Shown: positions 42,130-54,956 of the stretch, in pieces | Layout of the letters: every line of letters starts with the position of its first letter | Numbering within the stretch: position 1 is the first letter of the stretch | Virus record (IMG/VR): IMGVR_UViG_3300020469_000014 | Coordinates: 1 to 64,000 of that record | Source: a virus | Reading direction: 5' to 3' (one strand) | Length of the DNA: 64,000 bases | The notes under the pieces: model-generated | The model's database searches: none | What the model was told of the DNA's origin: nothing | What the model saw: only the letters and a program-made list of their open reading frames with translations | Made by a program: the position numbers and the translations under genes

Positions 42130-42153
42130 GTGTGCTTGTTTGTTGTTGGTCCT

Positions 42154-42187: not shown

Positions 42188-42201
42188 TGTGTGCCAGTGT
42201 C

Positions 42202-42543: not shown

Positions 42544-42570
42544 GATTGTTTGTTTGTTTGTTATGTACTT

Positions 42571-42629
42571 ATTATAATAGCATGGCGGGTCGCTGTCAGC
42601 CAGCTCTGTGCCAGTTCTTCTAGTGGCAC
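42571..42629 (-). promoter_or_regulatory. Early promoter cassette sharing its dyad with a divergent promoter
   Basis: Minus strand CTGACA (42594-42599), 17-bp spacer, TATAAT (42571-42576), then the AACAAACAAACA leader to the 113-aa gene. The GTGCCA...TGGCAC dyad at 42608-42629 lies between this promoter and the plus-strand promoter at 42649, so one dyad separates two divergent promoters. Confidence 0.8.
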
Positions 42630-42676
42630 ACTGAGCGCTTCTGCTTGGTTGACATTCTCTGGCAGTGCCCTATAAT
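42608..42676 (+). promoter_or_regulatory. Inverted cassette: dyad + TTGACA-16-TATAAT on plus strand
   Basis: Dyad GTGCCA-N10-TGGCAC at 42608-42629, perfect -35 TTGACA at 42649-42654, 16-bp spacer ending GTGCCC, perfect -10 TATAAT at 42671-42676. This is the same design as the minus-strand cassettes at 44.5-49.4 kb but in opposite orientation. No annotated plus-strand gene follows. Confidence 0.8.
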
Positions 42677-43031
42677 GGACCTATAAGAGATTCGGGGTAG
42701 GATCTATAAACTATTCGACACTGGTGCTGCTCCGCATTAATTGTTACAGCGTGTTACGGAATACCTATGGCACACTTGACGGGCCTTGTCTACCCTTATG
42801 TTGAGCAATGTGTCTTATGTGTGGTTATGAGGATTCGGGGCATTCTCGGTTGACTTATGAGCGTTTCCGTGTTATAATGCCCGCTTAGATGTCTATAAGA
42901 TTCACCCTTATTTCGCTTTACTTAGTGATCTCTATACAAAACAGAAGTATATTTAATTAACCTTTTTTAATGATTCTCAAATGATACTTAAAAGAGACAA
43001 TTAGACCCACTAAGTGTAGCAAACTCTCTCC
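42677..43031 (+). other. ORF-poor region behind two plus-strand promoters; candidate ncRNAs or micro-ORFs
   Basis: No frame longer than about 30 codons is evident on either strand. Transcripts from the promoters at 42649 and 42850 would begin similarly (CTATAAGAGATTC and CTATAAGATTC). Two tiny plus-strand frames exist: 42767-42853 (28 aa, MAHLTGLVYPYVEQCVLCVV...) and 42889-42960 (23 aa, hydrophobic MSIRFTLISLYLVISIQ...). Either small RNAs or microproteins are possible. No tRNA cloverleaf was recognised. Confidence 0.45.
42850..42878 (+). promoter_or_regulatory. Plus-strand promoter TTGACT-17-TATAAT
   Basis: TTGACT at 42850-42855, 17-bp spacer, TATAAT at 42873-42878. It points against all surrounding genes. 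A 23-codon hydrophobic frame begins about 10 nt downstream. Confidence 0.7.
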
Positions 43032-43226
43032 TTATAGTTCATCATTTAGTTCATATATCTTTCTCTGAATTTGCTTTAGTTTAGCATAGATACTTCCCTG
43101 TCTATTTGCTACTGGTAGAGCATTGTAATTAGCAAGACTTTCTAATACTAACAACTTGATAAGTGCCATTTCCTCATTATCAAATAGAGGGGCACTTAGC
43201 ATGAGGTTCGCTTCTTTAAGGGTCAT
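43032..43226 (-). CDS. Small hypothetical protein (64 aa)
   Basis: Starts at ATG 43226, MTLKEANLMLSAPLFDN, preferred because GAGG lies 9 nt upstream and it overlaps the previous gene by only 11 nt. The sequence is helical throughout, NEEMALIKLLVLESLANY then KLKQIQRKIYELNDEL. The MTLKEA opening recalls the LTDxQFNxL openings of other small proteins in this region. Confidence 0.7.
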   Translation of the reverse strand: MTLKEANLMLSAPLFDNEEMALIKLLVLESLANYNALPVANRQGSIYAKLKQIQRKIYELNDEL

Positions 43227-43362
43227 ACGATTCAACCTCGATTTCGATAGCATAGTCTGGGTAAGTTGTCTCTTCTACATTATCATTACTATCCGCTAAT
43301 CTCTGTAGAAATGCTTCACTTGATTCCCTTACAGTTTCTTCGATTGTTATTACTTTATCCAT
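43216..43362 (-). CDS. Small acidic protein (48 aa)
   Basis: Encodes MDKVITIEETVRESSEAFLQ to EIEVESYDP. Acidic, with one predicted helix. It begins directly at the stop of the 68-aa gene and overlaps the next gene by 11 nt, forming a three-gene operon from the promoter at 43597. Function unknown. Confidence 0.65.
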   Translation of the reverse strand: MDKVITIEETVRESSEAFLQRLADSNDNVEETTYPDYAIEIEVESYDP

Positions 43363-43569
43363 CTAGACTGCCTCCTTAGTGTTATACTTACTAATGGCAA
43401 TTTGTCCCAGATTCTCAACATATAGAGTCTTAACTCTCTCTCCATTCTTATCATTCAACTCTAGTAGTTTGTTCCAGTTCCAGTTACTTGGCGAAACACA
43501 GTTTGCTTCACTTACTGTAAAGTCTAATGTAACACGATAGCGAGTTACTGATTGTGATTGAGAGTCCAT
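43363..43569 (-). CDS. Small hypothetical protein (68 aa)
   Basis: Encodes MDSQSQSVTRYRVTLDFTVS, then WNWNKLLELNDKNGERVKT. A beta-alpha-beta-like small domain, reminiscent of short phage proteins whose strands flank a WNW helix; no family assignment. First gene after a strong promoter. Confidence 0.7.
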   Translation of the reverse strand: MDSQSQSVTRYRVTLDFTVSEANCVSPSNWNWNKLLELNDKNGERVKTLYVENLGQIAISKYNTKEAV

Positions 43570-43596
43570 AAGAATGAGAGTGGTGGATTACATTTA

Positions 43597-43625
43597 ATTC
43601 TACCAGATATTGCACTAATTGTCAA
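43597..43625 (-). promoter_or_regulatory. Sigma-70 promoter TTGACA-17-TAGAAT
   Basis: Minus strand TTGACA, a 17-bp spacer and TAGAAT, 28 nt upstream of the 68-aa gene. Unlike the cassettes further right it lacks both the AACAAACA leader and the GTGCCA dyad. Confidence 0.75.
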
Positions 43626-43881
43626 CCAGTGGACGATATTTCCTCTACTACATTGTTATTTAGTGGGGAAACATTGACGATGATTGTGATTACTTAAGCA
43701 CGCTTATATAAAAAAATTCGGGCGTTCGCCTCTAAGGGACTAGGAACTATGTAATACTAATAAAGACGAATTACTCTTATTAGTTTACAACTAGTGGTCT
43801 TACTAAGTGATTAACAAACAACTCACTTATGCCACTAAGTATAGCGATTAAAGACGATTAATCACTCATTAGAACTGTCAT
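43626..43881 (-). other. A/T-rich intergenic region with weak terminator and late-like motif
   Basis: No credible gene. On the minus strand GAGGCGAACGCCCG followed by TTTTTTT (about 43710-43735) could terminate the 44-aa gene's operon. CCACTAAATAAC (about 43649-43660) matches the late TAAATA motif upstream of the 68-aa gene. AGTGATTAA and TTAATCACT half-sites lie about 43 nt apart (43806-43874). Confidence 0.4.
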
Positions 43882-44016
43882 TCACCTCTTTTTCTTTTTG
43901 GACTGTTTAACCATCTTGTTAAACTTCTTTGATTGACTGGGTGACATACCACAAAAATAGTTCAGTAGATTGCCTTCATACTGGTCAGCAATGTTTGAAA
44001 GTTCGTTATCCATCAT
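43882..44016 (-). CDS. Small basic-tailed protein (44 aa)
   Basis: Encodes MMDNELSNIADQYEGNLLNY, then FNKMVKQSKKKKR. An acidic helical N-terminus is followed by a strongly basic tail. The start overlaps the stop of the 54-aa gene (ATGA). Last gene of a four-gene operon from the cassette at 44558. Function unknown. Confidence 0.6.
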   Translation of the reverse strand: MMDNELSNIADQYEGNLLNYFCGMSPSQSKKFNKMVKQSKKKKR

Positions 44017-44177
44017 TGTGCTAAACTCTCAAAACGCTTCATCGCAAGTTTAATTGCTTCCTCATCGATTTGATCAATAGTGACGATTTGTCCTTTATAA
44101 CGATAAAAGTTTTCAATTTCTTCTAGTGACTCCTCATAAAGTGTTTCAAGTAATTCATCATTAACAGCGCAACTCAT
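44013..44177 (-). CDS. Small acidic protein (54 aa)
   Basis: Encodes MSCAVNDELLETLYEESLEE to KLAMKRFESLAQ, mostly helical and acidic. Its stop overlaps the next start by ATGA and it begins right after the stop of the 44-aa acidic gene. No family recognised. Confidence 0.65.
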   Translation of the reverse strand: MSCAVNDELLETLYEESLEEIENFYRYKGQIVTIDQIDEEAIKLAMKRFESLAQ

Positions 44178-44312
44178 TTAATTTTCCTCATAGATAGGGG
44201 CGAACAATTGATAGTAAAGGTCATTCATGAGACCGAATTCAAACGAAGTGGAAGCGTGCTCCTCATCAACACCTTCCCAACACTTCATAATTTCAGTGTA
44301 AGTATCTTCCAT
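44178..44312 (-). CDS. Small acidic protein (44 aa)
   Basis: Encodes MEDTYTEIMKCWEGVDEEHA to APIYEEN. Acidic, with aromatic clusters. Coupled by TAATG to the 85-aa gene upstream, and its TAA abuts the next ATG. Function unknown. Confidence 0.65.
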   Translation of the reverse strand: MEDTYTEIMKCWEGVDEEHASTSFEFGLMNDLYYQLFAPIYEEN

Positions 44313-44569
44313 TATAGACACTCACTAGGTGCGAAACCGATAGAAGCGATAGCATTATCAAGCGCAACTCTATCAAGGTCAGGATCATCAAAATCAACGC
44401 CTGCAGCGTGATCTACACCCCACTCGAGCACCTCATCACAAAAATCTGAGAAATCTTTGCATACCCAAGCAACATTTTCAAAGTTTTCTACTTCTTTGAT
44501 TCTGTTAATTAATCTGTCTGTTTTAGTCATGTTTGTTTGTTTGTTTGTTATACTATTATTATAGGGCAT
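44312..44569 (-). CDS. Hypothetical acidic protein (85 aa)
   Basis: The ATG at 44569 comes directly after AACAAACAAACAAAC, the signature leader of this region. A short N-terminal part (MPYNNSITNKQT) would lie in the leader, so the internal MTKTDRLINRIKEVENFENV start at 44530 is the actual downstream ATG adjoining that leader; I keep the longest frame but favour 44530. The acidic C-terminus includes GVDHAAGVDFDDPDLDRVAL. Function unknown. Confidence 0.65.
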   Translation of the reverse strand: MPYNNSITNKQTNMTKTDRLINRIKEVENFENVAWVCKDFSDFCDEVLEWGVDHAAGVDFDDPDLDRVALDNAIASIGFAPSECL

Positions 44570-44615
44570 TGAGATTGAATATCAACCCCACTTGTGCCAG
44601 TTTGATTAGTGGCAC
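44558..44615 (-). promoter_or_regulatory. Stem-loop/early-promoter cassette
   Basis: Minus strand: dyad GTGCCA-N10-TGGCAC (44594-44615) right after the stop of the upstream gene, then TTGATA (44580-44585), 16-bp spacer, TATAAT (44558-44563), then AACAAACAAACAAAC and ATG at 44530. A textbook copy of the recurring module. Confidence 0.85.
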
Positions 44616-44616
44616 A

Positions 44617-44856
44617 CTATCGGTTGACTTTCTCCAAGTCACTTAGATAGCATTCCACTGTATGAAACTCATAGTCATTAATGTAAGTTTTAATAACAGC
44701 GTAGTCTCTACTTCTATCCAATAAAACTACATCACCTTCTAGATCATCATGTACGAGCGATTTAACACTAGTGCCTAGTTTGATGTTTGCTGTTACATCT
44801 TGACCAATTTTAAGAACATCTTTTTTACATAGTTCTTTGTATTCTTGAATTGTCAT
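44617..44856 (-). CDS. Hypothetical protein (79 aa)
   Basis: Starts at ATG 44856 (TAATG overlap with the previous gene), MTIQEYKELCKKDVLKIGQD. A helical start is followed by beta strands (VKSLVHDDLEGDVVLLD, YAVIKTYINDYEFHTVECYL), perhaps an SH3-like small barrel. Downstream stop is followed at once by the stem-loop cassette. Function unknown. Confidence 0.7.
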   Translation of the reverse strand: MTIQEYKELCKKDVLKIGQDVTANIKLGTSVKSLVHDDLEGDVVLLDRSRDYAVIKTYINDYEFHTVECYLSDLEKVNR

Positions 44857-45017
44857 TATAGTTGATTCTCCCATACTGTTGATTTAAAACGTCTCACTGC
44901 TTTGTCTAACAGTTTAATATCACCATCGCAGATATCAGCGGCAGACTCATCCTCTACATGAGAGAATGAATTGTTGATATCACCTATGAGAGTGAGTAAT
45001 GCTTCGTAATTAGTCAT
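44856..45017 (-). CDS. Small acidic protein (53 aa)
   Basis: Encodes MTNYEALLTLIGDINNSFSH to KSTVWENQL. ATG at 45017 follows the AACAAACAAACAACT leader. Helical and acidic in the middle (VEDESAADICDGD). Function unknown. Confidence 0.7.
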   Translation of the reverse strand: MTNYEALLTLIGDINNSFSHVEDESAADICDGDIKLLDKAVRRFKSTVWENQL

Positions 45018-45040
45018 AGTTGTTTGTTTGTTATACTACT

Positions 45041-45046
45041 ATTATA
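45041..45046 (-). promoter_or_regulatory. TATAAT with standard leader
   Basis: Minus-strand CGACTATAATAGTAGTATAACAAACAAACAACT upstream of the 53-aa gene. It keeps the -10 and leader of the cassette, but lacks the dyad and a good -35, because the preceding gene's stop is only 10 nt away. Confidence 0.65.
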
Positions 45047-45056
45047 GTCGATCGAA

Positions 45057-45329
45057 CTAGAATTTAGTCCTTGATTGTGCCACTTTAGCGATTGTCCTAC
45101 TATTCATAAACTGAGCAGGTCTCTTTGTATTACATGTAACAGCATAATTCATATCAAGTAAAATATCAATTTCTTCCGCCATGTTAAACACGTTGATTGC
45201 TTCATTTTCGACTGTCTTACCTTTATAGGTAACCACCTTCAATCTAGTAAGGTTACTAACTTTATTTTGTCCATCTTTGACTTCATAATAGTCAACAACT
45301 GTGTTTAGGTTATCAGATTGAAATTGCAT
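45057..45329 (-). CDS. Hypothetical protein (90 aa)
   Basis: Encodes MQFQSDNLNTVVDYYEVKDG, then VSNLTRLKVVTYKGKTVENE. Beta-hairpin-rich first half, helical NMAEEIDILLDMNYAV, basic C-terminal AKVAQSRTKF. The start is set by the leader after the cassette at 45355. Function unknown. Confidence 0.75.
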   Translation of the reverse strand: MQFQSDNLNTVVDYYEVKDGQNKVSNLTRLKVVTYKGKTVENEAINVFNMAEEIDILLDMNYAVTCNTKRPAQFMNSRTIAKVAQSRTKF

Positions 45330-45354
45330 GATGTTCTTTGTTTGTTATACTATC

Positions 45355-45415
45355 ATTATAGGGCACTGATATGCAATAACAACACTTAGTGTGCCACTAA
45401 TCAAACTGGCACACT
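45355..45415 (-). promoter_or_regulatory. Stem-loop/early-promoter cassette with 9-bp stem
   Basis: Dyad AGTGTGCCA-N10-TGGCACACT (45388-45415), -35 TTGTTA (45377-45382), 16-bp spacer ending GTGCCC, -10 TATAAT (45355-45360), then the AACAAACAAAG leader. It has the longest perfect stem of the set. Confidence 0.85.
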
Positions 45416-45429
45416 GTTGGTTGATTATA

Positions 45430-45678
45430 TCACCAATCTGGGGTAGGTTGCTTTGCCTGTGCTTTTTCGACCTTATCATAGTATTTGTCAACTGAACCCT
45501 CTAAGATTTCAAAGATAGTATCAACTTCATTTACATAATCATCAAATGGTTCTAATAATTGACCTTTAACTCTGTCCGCTCTGTAATGCTCACTCTTTTT
45601 AACACTATCCTCAAGTGAGCATAGGATAACACCTATTTGTGCTTCGGTTAGTGTGACTTTGTATAGTGTATTATTCAT
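45430..45678 (-). CDS. Small protein with LTEAQ-type N-terminus (82 aa)
   Basis: Start placed at ATG 45678, MNNTLYKVTLTEAQIGVILC, overlapping the previous stop by 8 nt. An alternative ATG at 45699 has AAGGAG 6 nt upstream and would add 7 residues. A beta-strand followed by LTEAQ-x2-VILCSLED matches the LTDxQFNxL small-protein family of this region. Charged helical remainder. Function unknown. Confidence 0.7.
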   Translation of the reverse strand: MNNTLYKVTLTEAQIGVILCSLEDSVKKSEHYRADRVKGQLLEPFDDYVNEVDTIFEILEGSVDKYYDKVEKAQAKQPTPDW

Positions 45679-45943
45679 GGATCCAGTTTCCTTGCTCATC
45701 ATAATCTCCTTCAGTAATAGATTCTAATCCATATGGATCACTATCAATAACGACTGATTGTAAACCTTTATAATCACGTCCCTGTAAACGATAGACTTCT
45801 TTCTGTTGTCTCATATCTCGATCGAGTCTATAACATAATTCTGCATTTAGTGCCATTAATTGACGTTTATCATCACTATGTTCAGAATAATGAAAGTTCA
45901 TACACTCTAACATGTATTCAAGTTCAATAATAGTAAATTTCAT
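45671..45943 (-). CDS. Hypothetical protein (90 aa)
   Basis: Starts at ATG 45943, MKFTIIELEYMLECMNFHYS, with GGAGGAG 9 nt upstream. Helical body with RQLMALNAELCYRLDRDMRQ, then an acidic, Asp/Gly-rich tail. The N-terminus (strand then ELEYMLE) resembles the LTDxQF family. Function unknown. Confidence 0.7.
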   Translation of the reverse strand: MKFTIIELEYMLECMNFHYSEHSDDKRQLMALNAELCYRLDRDMRQQKEVYRLQGRDYKGLQSVVIDSDPYGLESITEGDYDEQGNWIHE

Positions 45944-45944
45944 T

Positions 45945-46121
45945 TTAGTAGTCTCCTCCATATATTTCTTCCATCAACTCATCATAAAGTTTCTTTAGTT
46001 TAGTTGCTGTAATACTCTTTGCTTTATCATTAATTTTCTCTTCTGTCTTATCATCAAAATTCTTAGCAAGATCTTTGATCTCTTTGATGTAATAACGACA
46101 GTCTGATCTTGTTATGGTCAT
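45945..46121 (-). CDS. Small helical Lys-rich protein (58 aa)
   Basis: Encodes MTITRSDCRYYIKEIKDLAK, then NDKAKSITATKLKKLYDELM. Almost entirely amphipathic helix with many Lys/Glu pairs. ATG at 46121 follows AACAAACAAACAAATCT, the standard leader. Function unknown. Confidence 0.7.
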   Translation of the reverse strand: MTITRSDCRYYIKEIKDLAKNFDDKTEEKINDKAKSITATKLKKLYDELMEEIYGGDY

Positions 46122-46146
46122 AGATTTGTTTGTTTGTTATACTACT

Positions 46147-46203
46147 ATTATAGTAGCATGAGATTCAATAACAACCACGACTATGCCAGTAATTAAACTG
46201 GCA
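46147..46203 (-). promoter_or_regulatory. Stem-loop/early-promoter cassette with stop codon in the loop
   Basis: Dyad TGCCAGT-TTAATT-ACTGGCA (46184-46203) contains the TAA of the 56-aa gene in its loop. It is followed by TTGTTA (46169-46174), 16-bp spacer and TATAAT (46147-46152), then the AACAAACAAACAAA leader. Confidence 0.85.
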
Positions 46204-46363
46204 CATCATAGGTTGATTTATTTTTAAGAACATGCCAATATTCTTCATAAGATAGAGTTTCTTCTTTATCTGTATCGGTATTGAGTACAATATCAAAAGG
46301 ATAAAAAGCATAATATCTCATATGATCATCAACATACTCTTTGATTTGTTTATACTTAGTCAT
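46193..46363 (-). CDS. Small hypothetical protein (56 aa)
   Basis: Starts at ATG 46363, MTKYKQIKEYVDDHMRYYAF, with AAGGGG 7 nt upstream and an 8-nt overlap with the previous gene. Aromatic-rich. Its last codons (GTG CCA GTT TAA) are part of the downstream hairpin. Function unknown. Confidence 0.7.
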   Translation of the reverse strand: MTKYKQIKEYVDDHMRYYAFYPFDIVLNTDTDKEETLSYEEYWHVLKNKSTYDVPV

Positions 46364-46589
46364 CAGAACACCCCTTGATAACGCTTTGTATAGTATCGGT
46401 AAAATCCTCATCAAAGAATTCTTCGATCTCTACCATAGCATCATTAAATGAATGGTCATCTATCCATTTTTGCATATCTTGAGCAACATATACAACTAAA
46501 TCCTCGACTGACATTCCATCAACGACTCGATCGATATAACGCTCTTTAAGAGCATTGAATTGTTTGTCTGTTAGTTTTGTTTTGTTCAT
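46356..46589 (-). CDS. Small acidic LTDKQF-family protein (77 aa)
   Basis: Start placed at ATG 46589, MNKTKLTDKQFNALKERYID; an ATG 12 nt upstream is also possible. The N-terminal LTDKQFNAL is shared with two other genes at 48898 and 50863. The rest is helical and very acidic (VEIEEFFDEDFTDTIQ). Function unknown. Confidence 0.7.
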   Translation of the reverse strand: MNKTKLTDKQFNALKERYIDRVVDGMSVEDLVVYVAQDMQKWIDDHSFNDAMVEIEEFFDEDFTDTIQSVIKGCSDD

Positions 46590-46593
46590 AGTG

Positions 46594-46797
46594 TTAATCA
46601 TGGATGATAGAATCAAAAATTGTGTCATCATTAGGGAACTCATTTACCTTAGCAATTGCTGCTGCGGCAACCATGTTCCAGACCTTTTGTCCTGACATTT
46701 TCTGATCTTGACAATGGAAAGCAACTGTATCCTCTAAGAGTTCAAGCACTTCCATTGACTCATTAAAGAGTTTTTCGTATTCTACAGGGTTCATCAT
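46594..46797 (-). CDS. Small hypothetical protein (67 aa)
   Basis: Encodes MMNPVEYEKLFNESMEVLEL, then QKMSGQKVWNMVAAAAIAKV. GAGG 5 nt upstream of the ATG; overlaps the previous stop by ATGA. Helical. The YEKLFNES opening is loosely like the small-protein family. Function unknown. Confidence 0.7.
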   Translation of the reverse strand: MMNPVEYEKLFNESMEVLELLEDTVAFHCQDQKMSGQKVWNMVAAAAIAKVNEFPNDDTIFDSIIHD

Positions 46798-47027
46798 ACA
46801 GTCCTCACGAATAGTTTTGAAATGCGATCGTCAATTTCATTGACTCTCTCATAAACTGATCTGCCTTCGATCAATTCATCTTCTTGCATACTGTCATCAT
46901 CATAACAACGATAATCTTCAAGTGCATTTGAAATAGTGTCCCATTCTCCATCAGTGAAAAATGAGCGAATTGTTTGTAGTTGGTCAAAAGAGAAGTCTCT
47001 AACCAGTGATCCTTGACGATTCATCAT
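46794..47027 (-). CDS. Small acidic protein (77 aa)
   Basis: Encodes MMNRQGSLVRDFSFDQLQTI, then EWDTISNALEDYRCYDDDSM. The start (either of two adjacent ATGs) follows the AACAAACAAACAAACTTT leader. FSFDQLQTIRSFF is again a strand-then-helix opening. First gene of a four-gene operon. Function unknown. Confidence 0.7.
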   Translation of the reverse strand: MMNRQGSLVRDFSFDQLQTIRSFFTDGEWDTISNALEDYRCYDDDSMQEDELIEGRSVYERVNEIDDRISKLFVRTV

Positions 47028-47053
47028 AAAGTTTGTTTGTTTGTTATACTATC

Positions 47054-47108
47054 ATTATAGGGCAGTGACTCAAAGAATCAACCGCCCTTGTGCCAGTTTG
47101 TCTACTGG
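47054..47108 (-). promoter_or_regulatory. Stem-loop/early-promoter cassette with stop codon in dyad
   Basis: Dyad CCAGT-AGACAA-ACTGG (47093-47108) contains the TAG of the 100-aa gene. Then TTGATT (47076-47081), 16-bp spacer ending CTGCCC, TATAAT (47054-47059) and the AACAAACAAACAAAC leader. Confidence 0.8.
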
Positions 47109-47404
47109 TCTAATGCCCATAGACTTCCACCATCAAAATCGGTAGGGTATCCATAGTTTCTAACTAACATATCTCTAACTCTTTCTCTGTCAAGTGAATC
47201 ACCATCGCCCCAAGTGAATCTATCATTATCCAAATCAGATATCACTTGTAAGTAATCTTCCGTAGCAAGTGTAATGTCACCTTTAGTAACATTCATTTGA
47301 TAAAGTGCATCATCAGCACCATAGAATGAAAAGACATAATCAATAAACTCATCAAGTTGATTGATGTCATATTTTGATTTTCCGATAGCAACGATAGAAG
47401 TCAT
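47102..47404 (-). CDS. Hypothetical acidic protein (100 aa)
   Basis: Encodes MTSIVAIGKSKYDINQLDEF, then FTWGDGDSLDRERVRDMLVR. Acidic alpha/beta protein, sole gene of its transcription unit, with its own cassette upstream. Function unknown. Confidence 0.75.
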   Translation of the reverse strand: MTSIVAIGKSKYDINQLDEFIDYVFSFYGADDALYQMNVTKGDITLATEDYLQVISDLDNDRFTWGDGDSLDRERVRDMLVRNYGYPTDFDGGSLWALDQ

Positions 47405-47429
47405 AAACCTGTTTGTTTGTTATACTATC

Positions 47430-47487
47430 ATTATAGGGCAGTGATATTGAATATCAACCGCCCTTGTGCCACTTATTCAACTGTCAC
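47430..47487 (-). promoter_or_regulatory. Stem-loop/early-promoter cassette with stop codon in the loop
   Basis: Dyad GTGACA...TGGCAC (47466-47487, one mismatch) contains the TGA of the 64-aa gene. TTGATA (47452-47457), 16-bp spacer, TATAAT (47430-47435), then the AACAAACAAACAGG leader. Confidence 0.8.
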
Positions 47488-47671
47488 TAGGTACAACCAT
47501 TTGTGGGATTCCATCTTGAATATCCGCTAAGTGTCCTAGTTTATGACGAATTTTCCTAAAATTAACGTCAAAATCATCGCTCAACTTGTCAGTAACCCTA
47601 CAAGGCGTACCTAAGATAAGTTGAAGCAGAGCGTCACACTCTGCTGCGGTTAGATTTGGGTCATTCATCAT
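47477..47671 (-). CDS. Small hypothetical protein (64 aa)
   Basis: Encodes MMNDPNLTAAECDALLQLIL, then FDVNFRKIRHKLGHLADIQD. GAGG 6 nt upstream; overlaps the previous stop by ATGA. The LTAAECDALLQLI opening fits the LTDxQFNxL-type family. Function unknown. Confidence 0.7.
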   Translation of the reverse strand: MMNDPNLTAAECDALLQLILGTPCRVTDKLSDDFDVNFRKIRHKLGHLADIQDGIPQMVVPSDS

Positions 47672-48150: not shown

Positions 48151-48177
48151 AGTGTGTTGTTTGTTTGTTATGTACTT

Positions 48178-48238
48178 ATTATAGTGTGGTGGGAATGGAA
48201 ATCAACCACCTGTGTGCCACTAATCTAAGTGTCACAGG
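48178..48238 (-). promoter_or_regulatory. Stem-loop/early-promoter cassette
   Basis: Extended hairpin CCTGTG-A-CACT-TAGATT-AGTG-G-CACACAGG (48209-48238) overlaps the TGA of the 85-aa gene. Then TTGATT (48200-48205), 16-bp spacer, TATAAT (48178-48183) and the ATAACAAACAAACAAC leader. Confidence 0.8.
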
Positions 48239-48489: not shown

Positions 48490-48514
48490 TTAGTCCTCCT
48501 TTTTGTTTGTGTGG

Positions 48515-49295: not shown

Positions 49296-49316
49296 TGAAT
49301 TACCTTATATGTTTAT

Positions 49317-49374
49317 ATTATAGTATAATAAAATAGGATTGCAACCACTCATGTGACATTTATTCAACTGGCAC
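49317..49374 (-). promoter_or_regulatory. Stem-loop/early-promoter cassette, leader variant
   Basis: Imperfect dyad GTGCCA...TGTCAC (49353-49374), -35 TTGCAA (49339-49344), 16-bp spacer, -10 TATAAT (49317-49322). The leader here is ATATAAACATATAAGG rather than AACAAACA. Confidence 0.75.
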
Positions 49375-49388
49375 ACCCGATGAAGTGA

Positions 49389-50360
49389 TTAAGAGTTGGT
49401 AATCACTTCATCTGGTACGCCCCATGTCTTTTTCATGTTAAAGTTTGCATAACTGAAGCGTTGACGTTTGACAAGTTTGTATGTACCATATTTGTTAGTC
49501 ATCACATAACCCTCATGTTCATAGGGTTGACCATCAATAAGACACTCTACATCTTGTGACGTAGTGATGCCTTGCATCAATAGTTCTTTAACTTCGATAA
49601 TCATATTGTACAAGTGGAATAGGTTTTTTGAATATCCTGTATCACTTGCAAGTTGATCTGGGTTAAGTTTCTTGCCTTCCCTCACATAACTGTTGACGAT
49701 TACCTTTAGTGTTTTCCCTTCCTTGAGCGTGGGGAACTCGGTGAATCGTACCAACGTGCGAATAAGAATGAGCAAAAATTCGATCTTTGCATTTAAGCGG
49801 TTTGATCGGGCGCCCATACTAGCATGAGTATCAACTTGATAGTGTCTCAAGTTGGTACAGTCGAGATTCCCATAGTTATTAGTCCTATAATGGAATACTG
49901 CATCTAATTCTTGAATAGTTGCACCAACATATTCAGTATGAGTCGCTACAACCACTGATTGTTTGATTACTTTATCAAATTTGTAGGTGATTGTGTTAGG
50001 TTTGTAAGTATCATTACCACCATAACCAATGAAGTCGCACTGATATACCCCATGCTCTGTGGGCAGGGTCTCAAGACAAGTGTGTAGAATACTTGCTACG
50101 TTTGGGATGTTCCCATGATTAGTTTCAATGTCATCATGAGTATAGTTTATCTTGATCTTTTTCTTATTGAATACTGATTTAGTACCAACAAAGAATCTAC
50201 CATTCTCAGGGTTGACTCCATAGACGACAGCGGGGGCACCATCATATTTGACTGATATTTGATTTCTCTTGCTCTTCAGAAACTTGATCACATCAACAGC
50301 ACCCTCCTTACCAAGGGTCAGGATGCTGTCCTCTGGGTGTTCTAGGTGTTTGTTCTTCAT
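49389..50360 (-). CDS. Nucleotidyltransferase/ligase-like protein (323 aa)
   Basis: Resembles the covalent nucleotidyltransferase superfamily (DNA/RNA ligases, capping enzymes). Motif I K38-Y-D-G in ISVKYDGAPAVVYG supplies the candidate adenylated lysine. A motif III-like strand GVYQCDFIGYG is at 104-114. Near residue 285 EHEGYVMTNKYG followed by YKLVKRQRF resembles motifs IV and V. I chose ATG 50360 because the longer frame starts upstream of the TATAAT box; that box is only 6 nt from this ATG, so the mRNA is probably leaderless. It may be a polynucleotide ligase, or a relative that has taken up another role. Related proteins occur in T4-like phages. Confidence 0.7.
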   Translation of the reverse strand: MKNKHLEHPEDSILTLGKEGAVDVIKFLKSKRNQISVKYDGAPAVVYGVNPENGRFFVGTKSVFNKKKIKINYTHDDIETNHGNIPNVASILHTCLETLPTEHGVYQCDFIGYGGNDTYKPNTITYKFDKVIKQSVVVATHTEYVGATIQELDAVFHYRTNNYGNLDCTNLRHYQVDTHASMGARSNRLNAKIEFLLILIRTLVRFTEFPTLKEGKTLKVIVNSYVREGKKLNPDQLASDTGYSKNLFHLYNMIIEVKELLMQGITTSQDVECLIDGQPYEHEGYVMTNKYGTYKLVKRQRFSYANFNMKKTWGVPDEVITNS

Positions 50361-50366
50361 ACTACC

Positions 50367-50424
50367 ATTATACACCATGCCAACAGGAAAACAACCCTCT
50401 CTGTACCAGTTTGTAGACTGTCAC
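50367..50424 (-). promoter_or_regulatory. Promoter cassette producing a leaderless mRNA
   Basis: Imperfect dyad GTGACAGT...ACTGGTAC (50403-50424) overlapping the TGA of the 102-aa gene. -35 TTGTTT (50389-50394), 16-bp spacer, TATAAT (50367-50372). The ATG of the ligase-like gene begins 6 nt after the -10 box. Confidence 0.75.
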
Positions 50425-50729
50425 ACAAAGAATTGTTCTAGTGGGGTCAAGTTAAGTTTCATTGCAGTATAGGGCGAAGTGTCCTCTATTGAGACTTCTT
50501 TACCTATTCTATTTGAATTGATGGGGGCGTAGTAAGCGTGCGTACTGCTTCTCTTTGTTCTCTTATGCTTGACGAATCCCCAGATACAACGAGATTCATC
50601 ACCATCATTATAGAGAAACCTATAGTCAGATACAGTCCAGATAGCATCCACATTAGTTTTAAATTGTATCGACTCATAGCGGTATCCTTTAGGTGGTTGG
50701 TGAATAAAATCGTCTGGAAGTGCGGTCAC
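50421..50729 (-). CDS. Hypothetical protein (102 aa), GTG start
   Basis: GTG at 50729 opens (M)TALPDDFIHQPPKGYRYESI. The core has IWTVSDYRFLYNDGDESRCI and RTKRSSTHAYYAPINSNRIG, a beta-rich domain with a basic loop. It is preceded by a roughly 80-nt structured leader, unusual here. I recall similar cyanophage hypotheticals; function unknown. Confidence 0.7.
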   Translation of the reverse strand: MTALPDDFIHQPPKGYRYESIQFKTNVDAIWTVSDYRFLYNDGDESRCIWGFVKHKRTKRSSTHAYYAPINSNRIGKEVSIEDTSPYTAMKLNLTPLEQFFV

Positions 50730-50749
50730 AATTTATCAGTTAAAAGATT

Positions 50750-50809
50750 GTGGGAGAGATTCGACTTAAAGAGCATTTTCCACTGGGGTCGCTCACTCTT
50801 GCCTCCCAC
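50750..50809 (-). promoter_or_regulatory. Structured 5' leader, GTGGGAG...CTCCCAC
   Basis: Inverted repeat GTGGGAG (50803-50809) and CTCCCAC (50750-50756) with about 46 nt between, in the leader of the 102-aa gene just after its promoter. It resembles the leader hairpin at 54854 in position and in the initial GTGG(G)AGG sequence. Confidence 0.55.
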
Positions 50810-50815
50810 ATTTAT

Positions 50816-50873
50816 ATAATAATCCATTGGGATAGGATTACAACCAGTAGTGTGCCAGTTTATTATATGTCAC
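50816..50873 (-). promoter_or_regulatory. Stem-loop/promoter cassette TTGTAA-16-TATTAT
   Basis: Imperfect dyad GTGACA...TGGCAC (50852-50873) containing the TAA of the 63-aa gene, -35 TTGTAA (50838-50843), 16-bp spacer, -10 TATTAT (50816-50821). Confidence 0.7.
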
Positions 50874-51054
50874 ATTCGGGGTTGAGAAATTGTCTATTTC
50901 GCTTTACCTTAGTAGTTGAAATATCAATTAGGTCTTCTAACTCTTCAATAGAATTAGATAGGTTATCATCATCTTTCTCTTCAGAATAGAAAAATAATGC
51001 TTCACTTAACAAGTTGAATTGCTTGTCAGTTAGTGTTACATCGATCTTATACAT
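50863..51054 (-). CDS. Small acidic LTDKQF-family protein (63 aa)
   Basis: Encodes MYKIDVTLTDKQFNLLSEAL, then EEKDDDNLSNSIEELEDLID and a basic C-terminal patch. Shares LTDKQFNxL with 46356 and LTDxEFNxL with 48898. GAGG 4 nt upstream, 1 nt after the oxygenase stop. Function unknown. Confidence 0.75.
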   Translation of the reverse strand: MYKIDVTLTDKQFNLLSEALFFYSEEKDDDNLSNSIEELEDLIDISTTKVKRNRQFLNPECDI

Positions 51055-51055
51055 C

Positions 51056-51667
51056 TTACCTCATAGGTATGTTAAATGACATGATTGTCCTCTGTTTATC
51101 TGATTTAGATACTGGCGATTCATGTAACAATACAGAGGGGAAAGTTAGAATCTCACCTTCATTTACTGAAGGCGCAACCTTATCTATTGTACCATAAAAA
51201 GGGTTAGGATTAGGACTATAAAATGTAGTGGGAAAGTGCTCTTCTGCATCAAATTCAACATATAATACACATGATATATTCATTAAACCATGATTGTGGG
51301 CACCATGATATTGTCCTCTGTCATATCTCTGTGACCATAGTTGCCAATCCTCAATACCTTTGAAAGGGCAATCTCCTCTATATCTATCATTCAATATCTG
51401 TGTGTATTCATTAACTAACCTATCTAAATCAGTTTCCAATATCTCATAAAACTCCATAAGATATGGTGCTGAAGTCTGATACTTATAGTAATCAGTCTGG
51501 CACTCATAATCTTGTTTAAAGTAATCAAACTCTTGAAGATCATCACCAGTAAAATCCATTAGATTTAAGAGTTTAGATTTCTTGTCACTCCAATCATCTA
51601 CCACAAACTTAGTGATAGGGAACCCAAATAGATTTAGAGATTGACCGTTCATTTCTTGTGATTTCAT
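51056..51667 (-). CDS. 2OG-Fe(II) oxygenase, HxH type (203 aa)
   Basis: A PF13759-like 2OG dioxygenase. H124-N-H126 in GQYHGAHNHGLMNISCVLYV and distal H182 in PSVLLHESPV form the iron site; R193 in KQRTIMSFNI binds 2-oxoglutarate. The short N-terminal domain (LNLFGFPITKFVVDDW) is typical of cyanophage versions. Substrate unknown. It starts at the ATGA overlap with a possible 29-aa gene and precedes an LTDKQF-type gene. Confidence 0.85.
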   Translation of the reverse strand: MKSQEMNGQSLNLFGFPITKFVVDDWSDKKSKLLNLMDFTGDDLQEFDYFKQDYECQTDYYKYQTSAPYLMEFYEILETDLDRLVNEYTQILNDRYRGDCPFKGIEDWQLWSQRYDRGQYHGAHNHGLMNISCVLYVEFDAEEHFPTTFYSPNPNPFYGTIDKVAPSVNEGEILTFPSVLLHESPVSKSDKQRTIMSFNIPMR

Positions 51668-51753
51668 TTTCTGTCTTGAGAACCCTTGCCACCACTAGAC
51701 CAAAGACCTGTTTTTTCCATAATTCTGTCCGTCAGGTGTGTTTGGTCATCCAT
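51664..51753 (-). CDS. Possible very small protein (29 aa)
   Basis: ATG at 51753 opens MDDQTHLTDRIMEKTGLWSS...GSQDRK, whose TGA overlaps the oxygenase ATG (ATGA). GGG directly precedes the ATG. The coupling is suggestive but the frame is short. Confidence 0.4.
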   Translation of the reverse strand: MDDQTHLTDRIMEKTGLWSSGGKGSQDRK

Positions 51754-51797
51754 CCCACTCTCGTTATGGAAAAAAGACTAAGTGTCATCCTAGAAGT

Positions 51798-51968
51798 TCA
51801 TTTGTGCTTATAGTTCTTTCTTGATTTGCGCCTTGGTTTTATACCCTTGTCTCTCTTCAACTCTGCTTTAAGTTTCTTTAGAAATTTCAAGTGATCAGGA
51901 TACACCAATCTCATCAGATCCTTTTTAGTCTGTCTCGATTCTTTACTAATCTCTGTCCACCTCAACAT
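51798..51968 (-). CDS. Small very basic protein (56 aa)
   Basis: ATG at 51968 opens MLRWTEISKESRQTKKDLMR, ending KPRRKSRKNYKHK; a further ATG lies just upstream at 51971. About 20 of 56 residues are Lys/Arg, suggesting nucleic-acid binding. Overlaps the end of the acidic 88-aa gene by about 20 nt in another frame. Function unknown. Confidence 0.6.
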   Translation of the reverse strand: MLRWTEISKESRQTKKDLMRLVYPDHLKFLKKLKAELKRDKGIKPRRKSRKNYKHK

Positions 51969-52212
51969 CATTTATGTCCTGAAATGTAATGTTTGCGATG
52001 TCCGAATCAGTCCAATCTGTGATATCATCAAGGAATAAGTCGGTATCATCAAAATCATCTGCCTCGATCATCATTTCCTGTACTAATGCCTCAGCGTCCT
52101 CAAGTCGAACTTTATCCACCAAACTACTCATCTGTGTGGCGAATTGCTCTTCCATGACTGAAAGGCATTGTGCTCTGATCTTGTCAATTTGTGCCATTGG
52201 TTTAATTACCAT
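51946..52212 (-). CDS. Acidic hypothetical protein (88 aa)
   Basis: Encodes MVIKPMAQIDKIRAQCLSVM, then LVDKVRLEDAEALVQEMMIE and a highly acidic second half (DDFDDTDLFLDDITDWTDSD). The ATG is only 8 nt after the TATAAT box, so translation is nearly leaderless, or starts at Met-6 (52197). Acidic partner to the basic 56-aa protein encoded next. Function unknown. Confidence 0.7.
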   Translation of the reverse strand: MVIKPMAQIDKIRAQCLSVMEEQFATQMSSLVDKVRLEDAEALVQEMMIEADDFDDTDLFLDDITDWTDSDIANITFQDINDVEVDRD

Positions 52213-52220
52213 GTAGTTTA

Positions 52221-52249
52221 ATTATACTATAATGTTAAGTTATTTGCAA
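52221..52249 (-). promoter_or_regulatory. Promoter TTGCAA-17-TATAAT
   Basis: -35 TTGCAA (52244-52249) directly abuts the stop codon of the helicase gene; 17-bp spacer; TATAAT at 52221-52226. Confidence 0.7.
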
Positions 52250-53467
52250 CTACCTTGTCGCTCTTGATACCTGTGACTCTCCTCTAGTAAAGATAGTGTC
52301 AACAACTGATTGAAGGCGACGTTCTGTACCAATACCCACATTGCTGTAAACTGGTACAAACATCTTGCCAAATGGTTTTACATAACCATTTCCATTGATG
52401 TTAGGTTTGAGAGCACCTGTACTAATCTTAAGTGCATCTTCCTTATGTAGTCGAATGACTCGACCAATAGTCTGTGCCATGGTGATTAGATCAAGATTCC
52501 TCAATAGAATACAAGCAGTCAATCCGCTCACATTCATACCCTCTGAGAGAATAGAATGATGAAACATGACAAACTTCTTGTCAGGGTCAGCACCCCACTT
52601 GTTCATCAAATTGAAGAATGTCTTGCGAGTGACCTTCTTACCATTGATGATAGCACCATACTTTGATGTAATCCACATTACATTGTATTTCATAGAGTGA
52701 CATACTGCCATGAAATCAGTTTGAGTAATCAACTTGTGAATGTTCTTACTAGACTTAGCAGTGACCAATACTTTGTCCATGTGATCTTCATTTTCAAGAG
52801 CATCAAGAATCATACACCTGTCAATCTGCTCGACTGATTCATAGAACCCGATAGGATACTTGACTGACTTGACTTGAGGCGGTACAATGTAACCCTTTTC
52901 AATCAACTCTGGAGCAGCGACTTCTGCAATAACATTACCATACACCTTGACATTGTTCATACCTCTCTCTTGTGATGTATGATGTTTAGGTGTGGCAGTG
53001 AAGTAAAACTTACGTCTGGTAATCTTAGAGCGATTCTTGACACTCTCAAAGAAGTTCCTTTGAACTGAATTGTGTGCCTCATCATAATATACTGTGTCTG
53101 CTTCAACATCTTCTCTGACTTTGTGAAGTGAGTGATATGTTGTAAAGATCAACTGGTTCCTTGTACTGTTATGATGCCACTCTTGAATCTCTTCTGGGTT
53201 AGTAGTAGTCTTATAGTTAGTCTCTCCACTATGAACATGAAGCACCTCGACATTATCAATGTGCTCTAAGAACTCCTCACACAACTGTTGTGCAAGTAAG
53301 ATTCTAGGAGCAACAACAATAATAGTCTGCGGAATAGGCATACTGAATCGCCACTTAGCGTCCATAATCATACATATTGTTTTACCGCCACCTGTGGGTA
53401 CAAGAACCTGCCCCCACTTGTGTTGCATGGTATCAATTATGTCTGTTTGATGGTCACGAAGTTGCAT
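52250..53467 (-). CDS. DEAH-box SF2 helicase, UvsW-like (405 aa)
   Basis: A superfamily-2 helicase. Walker A is V-P-T-G-G-G-K-T at 23-30, motif II D129-E-A-H in VYYDEAHNSVQ, motif III TAT at 157-159, and motif VI QTIGRVIRLHK near residue 340. It begins almost at the helicase core (MQLRDHQTDIIDTM). T4 UvsW (503 aa) and its cyanophage relatives carry a longer N-terminal DNA-binding part, which this lacks. The probable role is branch migration or unwinding in recombination and origin use, or as a restriction-enzyme-type translocase. I use ATG 53467 because an upstream TTG has no ribosome-binding site. A TATAAT lies 23 nt upstream. Confidence 0.85.
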   Translation of the reverse strand: MQLRDHQTDIIDTMQHKWGQVLVPTGGGKTICMIMDAKWRFSMPIPQTIIVVAPRILLAQQLCEEFLEHIDNVEVLHVHSGETNYKTTTNPEEIQEWHHNSTRNQLIFTTYHSLHKVREDVEADTVYYDEAHNSVQRNFFESVKNRSKITRRKFYFTATPKHHTSQERGMNNVKVYGNVIAEVAAPELIEKGYIVPPQVKSVKYPIGFYESVEQIDRCMILDALENEDHMDKVLVTAKSSKNIHKLITQTDFMAVCHSMKYNVMWITSKYGAIINGKKVTRKTFFNLMNKWGADPDKKFVMFHHSILSEGMNVSGLTACILLRNLDLITMAQTIGRVIRLHKEDALKISTGALKPNINGNGYVKPFGKMFVPVYSNVGIGTERRLQSVVDTIFTRGESQVSRATR

Positions 53468-53489
53468 AGTCAGTTGTCTCAATACTCAT

Positions 53490-53525
53490 ATTATAGGATA
53501 AAAAAAGACCCCTGCATGGGGTCTT
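53490..53525 (-). terminator. Terminator followed by TATAAT
   Basis: AAGACCCC-ATGCA-GGGGTCTT then TTTTTT (about 53499-53525) ends the 56-aa gene's transcript. TATAAT at 53490-53495 follows at once and is the probable -10 of the helicase gene, though no -35 match is evident. Confidence 0.75.
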
Positions 53526-53534
53526 GTGACAGTT

Positions 53535-53705
53535 TCAGAACTGTGCCAATAGTTTTTGAGTCTCAGGATCGAACTCCTCTTTGACTCCATTGATGTCCAT
53601 CAACCAATCATCTGCCTCAAGTCGTTCAAACTCTTCGGTTCCAAGTGTCCATTCGGGATCGCCCGAGAACATTTGGGCATTTTCTTCAAACTCTTGTGGG
53701 GTCAT
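53535..53705 (-). CDS. Small acidic protein (56 aa)
   Basis: Starts at ATG 53705, MTPQEFEENAQMFSGDPEWT; a TTG 15 nt upstream is ignored. Acidic, with a C-terminal EEFDPETQKLLAQF helix. Terminator 10 nt downstream. Function unknown. Confidence 0.65.
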   Translation of the reverse strand: MTPQEFEENAQMFSGDPEWTLGTEEFERLEADDWLMDINGVKEEFDPETQKLLAQF

Positions 53706-53750
53706 TGTCTTAATAATCAAAATTTACAAAAAATAATAAACACATCAAAC

Positions 53751-53984
53751 TCAGCAACTTGCAGGCGAGTATTGTTGTGGTTCAGTCAGGAAATCTGTCA
53801 CCTGATAACCAAGATCGAGACGTGAATTGATTGTCTCAGTCATTTCTCTCTTGCTCATCAGTCGCATTGACATAGCATTAACTTCGCCTTGATTGTTCTT
53901 CAGTTTGAGAGTATAAACGAATTTCTCAGTCAAAATGTTGTGAGGGCGGAACTCTACTGACATTGAACCTGATGTGAGTTGCAT
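53751..53984 (-). CDS. Small beta-rich protein (77 aa)
   Basis: Encodes MQLTSGSMSVEFRPHNILTE, then FVYTLKLKNNQGEVNAMSMR and INSRLDLGYQVTDFL. Alternating strands suggest a small beta domain. First gene of a unit behind a TTGCAG-16-TATAAT promoter. Function unknown. Confidence 0.7.
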   Translation of the reverse strand: MQLTSGSMSVEFRPHNILTEKFVYTLKLKNNQGEVNAMSMRLMSKREMTETINSRLDLGYQVTDFLTEPQQYSPASC

Positions 53985-54008
53985 GGGGTCTCTTGTGTTT
54001 ACTCTCTT

Positions 54009-54063
54009 ATTATAATGGGATCAGAGTCCCCTGCAACCACCTGTGTGCCAGTTATCCAACTGG
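54009..54063 (-). promoter_or_regulatory. Stem-loop/early-promoter cassette with stop codon in the dyad
   Basis: Dyad CCAGT-TGGATA-ACTGG (54048-54063) contains the TAA of the 99-aa gene; -35 TTGCAG (54031-54036), 16-bp spacer, TATAAT (54009-54014). Confidence 0.75.
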
Positions 54064-54351
54064 TGGTGTGCCTGGTGCCTGAGCAGGCATTGATTCCATA
54101 TCAAACTTACTAGATGCCTTCTCTAGTTCTACCTTACCCTTGAGGGCATTGACCTCTGCAATAAGAGTCTTAATATCATCTTGTTGTTTATACAAGGCAG
54201 CATTAACCAATGACTCCAATGTAGTCAATCTCTCATCAAGATTACCAATGGTTCGCATTGATGCTTGTAATTGTTTCTTTAGTCTATCTACTTGTTGCAA
54301 CTTAGTTTTAGTAAGTGCTTCTGTGTCTGATGTTAGTGAATCGTATCCCAT
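54052..54351 (-). CDS. Coiled-coil protein (99 aa), possibly late
   Basis: Residues about 10-78 form a continuous coiled coil (LTKTKLQQVDRLKKQLQ, TLESLVNAALYKQQDDIKTL, AEVNALKGKVELEKASS), with a Pro-rich C-terminal tail, MPAQAPGTPPVG. Unlike its neighbours it is preceded by a TATCTAAATAA late-type motif, so it may be a virion or assembly protein embedded in the early region. Function unknown. Confidence 0.75.
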   Translation of the reverse strand: MGYDSLTSDTEALTKTKLQQVDRLKKQLQASMRTIGNLDERLTTLESLVNAALYKQQDDIKTLIAEVNALKGKVELEKASSKFDMESMPAQAPGTPPVG

Positions 54352-54369
54352 AATTTATGTTACTCTTTG

Positions 54370-54380
54370 ATTATTTAGAT
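54370..54380 (-). promoter_or_regulatory. Late-promoter-like TATCTAAATAA
   Basis: Minus-strand TATCTAAATAA about 20 nt upstream of the 99-aa coiled-coil gene, far from the main structural cluster. Confidence 0.5.
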
Positions 54381-54391
54381 AGGTGTGCGTA

Positions 54392-54817
54392 TTACCTGAT
54401 GTACAGATAACCACCTGCCCAGTCACAGTTTGATAGCATCCACTGACGTTGATTGATGTCTCTCATATCAAATCTAACGTGTTTAGCAGGTGCTTTCCAT
54501 GAAGCAGGTTTGTAAACCTCTCCTGTCATTTTGTCAACAAAAGCATGAACCCCTGCACTATCATATTTGCCTTGGTGGTAGTCATTCTGAATGATCTTAT
54601 GATACCTTTTGCCTGATGTTATAGTAAACCTCATGCACTCTTCATCATTCTCAATTTTGTTAATCCTATCCTGTAGGTATGGATTATTTTCCTCTGAATT
54701 ATTCTTGATGCAAGAGCGAACTGCGTAGTTCTTATACTGTTGTTCGAGAGCACGGCAAAGTGTCTCTGTCCATTGAAGTACTTCTACTTTTGTGAGTGAT
54801 TGTTCTAGTGTTGACAT
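54392..54817 (-). CDS. Conserved phage hypothetical protein (141 aa)
   Basis: The C-terminal part HAFVDKMTGEVYKPASWKAP, then AKHVRFDMRD, is a pattern I recognise from hypothetical proteins of many phages. The N-terminal region is helical (LQWTETLCRALEQQY). One recurring idea is nucleic-acid binding, but no activity is established. The leader contains a strong hairpin with a U-rich tail, so expression may be attenuated. Confidence 0.8.
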   Translation of the reverse strand: MSTLEQSLTKVEVLQWTETLCRALEQQYKNYAVRSCIKNNSEENNPYLQDRINKIENDEECMRFTITSGKRYHKIIQNDYHQGKYDSAGVHAFVDKMTGEVYKPASWKAPAKHVRFDMRDINQRQWMLSNCDWAGGYLYIR

Positions 54818-54853
54818 AATCTTTGTTTGTATTGTTGTTTGTTAAAGAGAAAA

Positions 54854-54889
54854 GGGGGGAAAGGTAACAAACACAAAACCTTTCCCTCC
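54854..54889 (-). promoter_or_regulatory. Leader hairpin with U-rich tail (attenuator-like)
   Basis: GGAGGGAAAGG pairs with CCTTTCCCCCC around a 14-nt loop, followed by TTTTCTCTTT, between the promoter at 54898 and the 141-aa gene. Looks like a terminator inside the 5' leader. Confidence 0.7.
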
Positions 54890-54897
54890 ACATTCAT

Positions 54898-54956
54898 ATA
54901 TTACTGCTTTATGGTGGTAATACAACCACCTATGTGCCACTACTTCAACTGTCCAC
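54898..54956 (-). promoter_or_regulatory. Stem-loop/promoter cassette TTGTAT-16-TAATAT
   Basis: Degenerate dyad near 54934-54956 overlapping the TAG of the 58-aa gene; -35 TTGTAT (54920-54925), 16-bp spacer, -10 TAATAT (54898-54903). Confidence 0.65.

Follow-up and report, generated by a model that had tools for sequence, protein, structure and literature searches.

Recurrent dyad–TATAAT cassettes of T4-like cyanophages as activator-type promoters whose dyad is most likely a site for a host GntR regulator

The 64,000-nucleotide stretch analysed here (the window) comprises bases 1–64000 of a 134,054-bp virus record, IMGVR_UViG_3300020469_000014, which is possibly a fragment. Of the named phages in the collection, the one closest to it is the T4-like cyanophage S-SSM7 of Synechococcus (Kyanoviridae, Lipsvirus). 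On its minus strand the window carries 15 copies, spread over 42.15–54.96 kb, of a cassette in which a 24-bp dyad is followed, after a gap of 30 or 31 bp, by a TATAAT-like box and, 7 nt beyond the box, by a predicted transcription start. This cassette is a real and widespread activator-type promoter, with the dyad most likely serving as a site for a host activator of the GntR family. The activator-type reading is drawn from a geometry that stays fixed over unrelated spacers, the absence of covariation between the dyad arms, a dispensable TTG −35 element, terminator-like hairpins lodged inside the promoter, and the recurrence of the palindrome in cyanobacterial hosts.

Coordinates are given on the plus strand, and the cassettes are read on the minus strand. 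Twelve strict copies were recovered by a pattern scan as TGGCAC (at most one change), 8 bp, a hexamer, 16 bp and a TATAAT-like box; the dyad at 42607–42630 is a thirteenth copy that keeps the 8 bp and has a 17-bp spacer, and a matrix of the dyad and −10 box, run over the whole record, added the looser copies at 53525–53548 and 42190–42213. The matrix had been trained on viral contigs, and the record scan was compared with eight Markov-shuffled genomes, in which the top score was 13.8, against 23.5–47.3 for the 15 window copies. Five other places in the 134-kb record scored 13.3–15.7, four of them being the palindrome read backwards, and outside the 15 copies no place in the record scored above 20 with this matrix. 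The cassette pattern is far beyond chance. A first-pass annotation of the window had described the cassettes between 42.6 and 55.0 kb, and they are borne out by 12 strict copies and 15 by matrix, with 42190–42213 lying just outside that interval. The 16-bp spacer it proposed is exact in the 12 strict copies, and the distance between dyad and −35 element, given as 8–20 nt, is a constant 8 bp in 13 copies. The leader it placed before the ATG was found as AACAAACAAACA in seven copies and as a one-base variant in an eighth. Likewise, the stop codon that it reported inside seven or more dyads was counted inside in 10 of the 15: the stop of the upstream open reading frame (ORF, at least 40 aa) lies within the 24-bp dyad in these 10, one of which (46205) depends on an ORF with a TTG start, abuts it in one, and is outside or absent in four.

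The geometry was then measured in viral contigs, using a scan for the dyad plus TATAATA at variable distance, with the −35 element not required, pooled with viral loci from earlier scans; an earlier scan of these contigs, in which a short pattern was allowed a variable gap, had given mostly chance matches, and stricter patterns were used instead. At least 213 unique viral sites were pooled, with a gap of 30 bp in 146, 31 bp in 40, 29 bp in 8 and another length in 19, and 148 dissimilar sites among the matches listed gave 30 bp in 89, 31 bp in 34, 29 bp in 8 and another length in 17. Among the 123 dissimilar 30- or 31-bp sites in the matches listed, a TTG at a 15–18-bp spacer was missing in 81, and the remainder had it at 16 bp (34 sites), 17 bp (7) or 15 bp (1); this share without TTG is probably underestimated, as the pool includes loci from TTG-requiring scans. 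The dyad can replace the −35 element in the promoter. An A/G-T-A is conserved after TATAATA in the viral sites among the matches listed, and for this reason the start is predicted 7 nt past TATAAT. A minor class, whose 41-bp gap is longer by roughly one helical turn, accounts for four of the 213 sites among the matches listed, and three of these four carry the TATAAGAGATTCGGGGTAGGATCTATAAACT start motif. In addition, five viral-contig dyads (L368, L380, L388, L403 and L415) have a 25-bp gap with TTGACA or TTGACT 2 bp past TGGCAC, a possible second phasing class.

Conservation of the dyad in relatives, named in the first-pass annotation as a test of its reading, was observed in the T4-like cyanophages scanned with the matrix. 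At a matrix cut of 20, sites were present in nine of nine such genomes, the window's own record included (15 sites in that record, 20 in S-SSM7, 18 in P-SSM2, 17 in S-CRM01, 11 each in S-PM2 and P-HM2, 8 in P-SSM4, 5 in Syn9 and 4 in S-RSM4), and none scored above 20 in the two T7-like cyanophages P-SSP7 (to 40 kb) and Syn5. The strict pattern matched in 8 of 11 phage records and was absent from S-TIM5 (searched this way only), P-SSP7 and Syn5. Two scans of viral contigs placed the dyad–promoter composite in at least 119 and at least 120 stretches, and a scan of 84,980 genomes placed it at nine sites, none of them in a record titled Synechococcus or Prochlorococcus. As a side observation, several copies at 127–170 kb in the freshwater phage S-CRM01 (W08) have a different −10/start block, for example TATGCTAGCTAAGTGG, replacing TATAATA.

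The full palindrome also occurs in hosts, at 10 places in 9 of 386 cyanobacterial genomes, with none for a reversed-pattern control. In eight of these ten places, Cyano-1 RNA (RF01701), which we take to be the Yfr2 family, lies just downstream. A family search gave a Cyano-1 match in 48 of 117 cyanobacterial genomes, and 30 loci and 13 stretches yielded 44 distinct upstream regions of 110 nt each, which were scored with a matrix trained solely on phage dyads (15 from the window and 19 from S-SSM7). Twenty of the 44 upstream regions scored above the 99% null, as did 0.98% of 1538 background windows, and in 18 of these 20 the distance of the palindrome from the GTGAGGAG motif was −44 to −47, a fixed distance that agrees with the phage distance to the predicted start. 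Moreover, a dyad-30-TANNNT arrangement was found in 8 of the 386 genomes (three of the eight near-identical) and never in the control; near one of these matches (L454) is a strong c-di-AMP riboswitch match, probably a coincidence. No phage-encoded Yfr2 was found above cut-off in any of the 12 phage records, the genome G000 and P-SSM2 giving E values of 0.3–0.8 only.

A host protein that binds yfr2 promoters has been described. In one report, the GntR-family protein PMM1637, common to all cyanobacteria, binds the yfr2 promoters containing the motif CGRE1, a motif stated there to occur nowhere else in the MED4 genome, and mediates Yfr2 induction (PMC6778093). In a second, the functions of PlmA include Yfr2 regulation, with links to PII-PipX and thioredoxin (PMC6243067). 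We found one GntR-domain match in each of four cyanobacterial genomes, the proteins being 328–330 aa long in the three translated; for these three, Pfam gives GntR, no NCBIfam model scores above cut-off, and the best NCBIfam match of the N-terminal domain is PdxR, far below cut-off. By length, domain and uniqueness, these host proteins would be PlmA. PlmA is placed near the YtrA and MocR subfamilies in a third report, according to which YtrA-type sites are long and have their GT and AC well away from the centre, and the PdxR motif is AAAGTGGW(-/T)CTA (PMC4494728). The AAAGTGG of that motif is also present in the commoner variants of the phage proximal arm, and the dyad bears a suggestive resemblance to the YtrA/PdxR style of site. 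Judged from sequence, we consider PlmA a reasonably probable binder of the phage dyad. The literature searched holds no tie of a GntR factor or a Yfr2 promoter to phage early promoters, and no report of terminators lodged inside a promoter, the two most relevant papers being beyond reach in both cases.

Taking these observations together, we propose a mechanism in which the 24-bp dyad (approximately TGTGnCAGTTnnnnAAcTGGCACA, with the proximal TGGCACA best kept) would act in the form of double-stranded DNA. It would occupy about −65 to −42, with its end a fixed 30–31 bp ahead of TATAAT and the start predicted 7 nt past that box. Host PMM1637/PlmA, which would already be available when expression of the first phage gene begins, would bind the dyad and recruit host RNA polymerase to many small phage genes. 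The genes behind the cassettes are presumably early genes, and the A-rich leader AACAAACAAACA may act as an unstructured 5′ untranslated region without a clear Shine-Dalgarno sequence. We tentatively suggest, at somewhat less than even confidence, that T4-like cyanophages, marine and freshwater, took over the host yfr2 switch and use PlmA as the first activator of infection. If so, early phage transcription would be gated by the light/redox and nitrogen state of the host, and the reported presence of the factor in all cyanobacteria would go some way to account for a wide host range. PlmA is reported to interact with thioredoxin and PII-PipX (PMC6243067), so that light and nitrogen conditions in the host could, through it, bear on how infection begins. 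A review describes cyanomyoviruses as lacking alt, modA, modB, motA and asi, of which alt, motA and asi are among the means by which T4 redirects host RNA polymerase, calls their early and middle control unresolved, and mentions sigma-70-like motifs upstream of early-gene homologues in S-PM2 and Syn9 (PMC2984593); a named host activator makes cyanomyovirus early control a testable question. The dyad motif could also be used to recognise promoters of this type in viral metagenomes.

Several observations weigh against parts of this proposal. In Syn9, the strict pattern gave three matches and its control three, with no excess; the five sites above 20 (48558, 51000, 51211, 148742 and 157270) have the −10 boxes TATTCT (two), AACAAT (two) and TATAAT (one), and the site at 157270 (score 20.9), which has lower-scoring counterparts in S-PM2 and S-CRM01, is probably a chance match in conserved coding sequence. 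Syn9 is reportedly a phage with published start mapping. On the host side, 24 of the 44 Cyano-1 upstream regions scored below threshold, near relatives among the 44 mean that they are not independent events, and one background window scored 27.5. Only the distal half-site is clear in the small low-GC genomes G109 and G116, which we took for marine picocyanobacteria from size and GC, whereas in phage sites it is the proximal half that is best conserved. The identity of CGRE1 with the phage dyad is presumed, the possible fragment status of the window's own record weakens its lack of a GntR domain as evidence, and the lack of GntR in phages leaves room for another phage binder.

The strongest competitor agrees that the cassette is an activator-type early promoter and assigns the dyad to a phage protein, injected or made first, or to another host factor, with the likeness to the Yfr2 promoter reflecting shared ancestry or convergence. 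The abundance of the composite in viral contigs set against its rarity in genomes, together with the different halves conserved in phage and small-genome host sites, speaks for such a binder. Nevertheless, in many cyanobacteria the spacing between the host palindrome and the RNA is the same, a GntR domain was found in none of the 12 phage records, and the published binder of the yfr2 promoter is a host GntR protein (PMC6778093). We therefore regard a phage or other binder as unlikely, and prefer host PlmA.

Whether the dyad acts as DNA or as RNA was examined in 106 distinct dyads from the nine T4-like cyanophage genomes, taken at a matrix score above 20 with overlapping matches merged, a selection that could hide odd variants and that keeps in chance matches such as Syn9 157270. 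Watson-Crick pairing exceeded the independence expectation by no more than 0.01 at every one of the 12 dyad positions, and at the position where G and C flip, 42 dyads pair and 47 do not. The promoter-proximal arm is almost invariant, and the distal arm is not. The compensatory changes that the first-pass annotation proposed to look for in relatives are thus absent from these dyads, and its word hairpin is not upheld, with no sign of selection at the RNA level. In the window copies the sequence after the dyad is mixed, with no T-run, and so does not show the GC hairpin and U-run of an intrinsic terminator.

Terminators are present nearby as separate structures. A terminator-like hairpin with a T-rich tail lies between the dyad and the −10 box in 24 of the 106 copies across the nine phages. 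The rule used to call them was automatic and lets in some weak examples; applied to shuffled spacers, it gave a mean of 2.55 and a maximum of 6. Among the 24 are three window copies, two clear (53525–53548, in which the −35 element is replaced by a terminator hairpin, and 42190–42213) and one weak (49352–49375). The first-pass idea of a compact terminator/promoter unit therefore survives in respect of these embedded hairpins and fails for the dyad itself, which is no terminator, while its operator option gains support in the sense of an activator site. A stem-loop of the kind found in promoter early stem-loop (PeSL) cassettes was likewise rejected as a description of the dyad, given the lack of covariation and of a T-run and the separate hairpin in 24 of 106.

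We are accordingly highly confident that the dyad works as a promoter element at the DNA level and not as a hairpin. The opposite reading, in which an RNA hairpin terminates or processes the upstream mRNA in a PeSL-like terminator and promoter, can point to the stop codons inside 10 of the 15 window dyads and to the terminator-like hairpins adjoining the dyad in 24 of 106 copies. In P-SSM2, however, upstream genes end before the dyad (53915 and 56567), inside it (57047, 67166, 67742 and 68046) or, as annotated in five copies (44640, 55757, 58535, 60626 and 61988), with the TAA of the TATAAT box as their stop codon, the whole dyad then lying within the upstream coding region; because gene ends vary in this way, the stop-in-dyad pattern seems to reflect genes and promoters packed closely together. 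No ORF of at least 40 aa ends near 42607–42630, and the 30/31-bp phasing to TATAAT is constant over diverged sequence. With none of the 12 positions covarying and any terminator separate from the dyad, we consider an RNA hairpin very improbable.

Equally remote from the evidence is an operator at which a repressor silences the promoters later in infection. GntR proteins are often repressors, and a palindrome beside a strong promoter is what such an operator would look like. The position at −65 to −42, the strict phasing and the lack of a TTG −35 from the majority of dissimilar copies nonetheless fit activation, and PMM1637 is described as mediating Yfr2 induction (PMC6778093). Maintenance of the cassettes mainly as recombination targets that shuffle small genes is hardly credible: although cassettes flank two differences from S-SSM7, a window-only gene (50.4–50.9 kb) and a replacement near 45.0 kb, five of the seven unmatched window ORFs in the compared stretch lack cassette bounds, gene order is otherwise common to S-SSM7 with most cassettes in corresponding places, spacers differ between copies and so offer little homology, and recombination has no need of phasing. 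Some part in gene exchange, short of being what keeps the cassettes in place, may nonetheless exist.

The cassette region consists of small minus-strand ORFs in an order largely as in S-SSM7, and no Rfam model matched the window at gathering scores. Read along the minus strand, the first two dyads, 54933–54956 (−35 TTGTAT; −10-like TAATAT at 54898–54903; predicted start 54891) and 54044–54067 (TTGCAG; TATAAT at 54009–54014; predicted start 54002), both contain the upstream stop. The dyad at 53525–53548, with a GC hairpin and T-run embedded in the spacer, TATAAT at 53490–53495 and a predicted start at 53483, precedes the ORF at 53482–52250, an ortholog of the S-SSM7 helicase. It is followed by 50851–50874 (TTGTAA; TATTAT at 50816–50821; predicted start 50809), again with the upstream stop inside, by 50402–50425 (TTGTTT; TATAAT at 50367–50372), whose predicted start at 50360 is also the A of an ATG, and by 49352–49375 (TTGCAA; TATAAT at 49317–49322; predicted start 49310).

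From there on, the copies down to 42607–42630 carry the leader. Four with AACAAACAAACA lie at 48213–48236 (TTGATT; TATAAT at 48178–48183; predicted start 48171), 47465–47488 (TTGATA; TATAAT at 47430–47435; predicted start 47423), 47089–47112 (TTGATT; TATAAT at 47054–47059; predicted start 47047) and 46182–46205 (TTGTTA; TATAAT at 46147–46152; predicted start 46140), and the dyad at 45390–45413 (TTGTTA; TATAAT at 45355–45360; predicted start 45348) has the variant leader AACAAACAAAGA. AACAAACAAACA returns at 45076–45099, where the −35 is the non-consensus ACTAAA, identical in S-SSM7 (TATAAT at 45041–45046; predicted start 45034), at 44593–44616, which the upstream stop abuts (TTGATA; TATAAT at 44558–44563; predicted start 44551), and at 42607–42630, with a 31-bp gap, TATAAT at 42571–42576, a predicted start at 42564 and no upstream stop near. 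The last and weaker dyad, 42190–42213, has a 31-bp gap with an embedded terminator-like hairpin, TACAAT at 42154–42159 and a predicted start at 42147.

The dyad at 42607–42630 serves both the minus-strand promoter at 31 bp and, at a 41-bp gap, a divergent plus-strand sigma-70-type promoter-like site at 42649–42676 (TTGACA-16-TATAAT). This plus-strand site opens the stretch 42670–43031, and the window ORF list has no ORF of at least 40 aa in 42676–43031. The start of the stretch is conserved (TATAAGAGATTCGGGGTAGGATCTATAAACT) and also follows TATAAT in viral contigs L149, L216, L235 and L242, and the stretch aligns at 74% in S-SSM7 (L134, 878–1059), making it a candidate phage non-coding RNA. 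A second plus-strand promoter-like site, TTGACT-17-TATAAT, lies inside the same stretch at 42840–42890. In P-SSM2, a 400-bp gap between two plus-strand genes (66279–66679; L517) contains several dyads and −10-like boxes in both directions and is perhaps another non-coding RNA locus.

Among known systems, a novel regulatory element of early genes in Syn9 and P-TIM40, conserved among T4-like cyanophages, was reportedly described by Doron et al. in the ISME Journal in 2016; it, too, concerns T4-like cyanophage early genes, and it may well be the dyad described here, which would cap the novelty of our finding. PeSL cassettes of T4-type phages are said to have been described by Arbiol (2010) and Comeau (2014). 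The cassettes resemble them as repeated small units among variable small genes, with a sigma-70-like promoter recurring between small genes in 15 copies, as in the PeSL terminator/promoter units; they differ in that the dyad is not a terminator and that any terminator accompanying it sits within the spacer of the promoter. For S-PM2, one report describes candidate stem-loops at a density much below that of PeSLs elsewhere (PMC4503421). The T4 middle promoter (MotA box plus −10) is similar in that an activator site substitutes for the −35 element while a TATAAT-like box is kept. The MotA box is at about −30, whereas the dyad is a palindrome centred near −53, and T4 middle promoters need phage MotA/AsiA, reported absent from cyanomyoviruses in the review (PMC2984593). 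The host yfr2 promoter (Cyano-1, RF01701) shares the palindrome consensus and its fixed distance upstream of the RNA. It serves a small RNA and its right half is often TGTCACA, whereas each phage genome has many copies, which retain TGGCACA and in some cases carry a terminator-like hairpin between the dyad and the −10 box.

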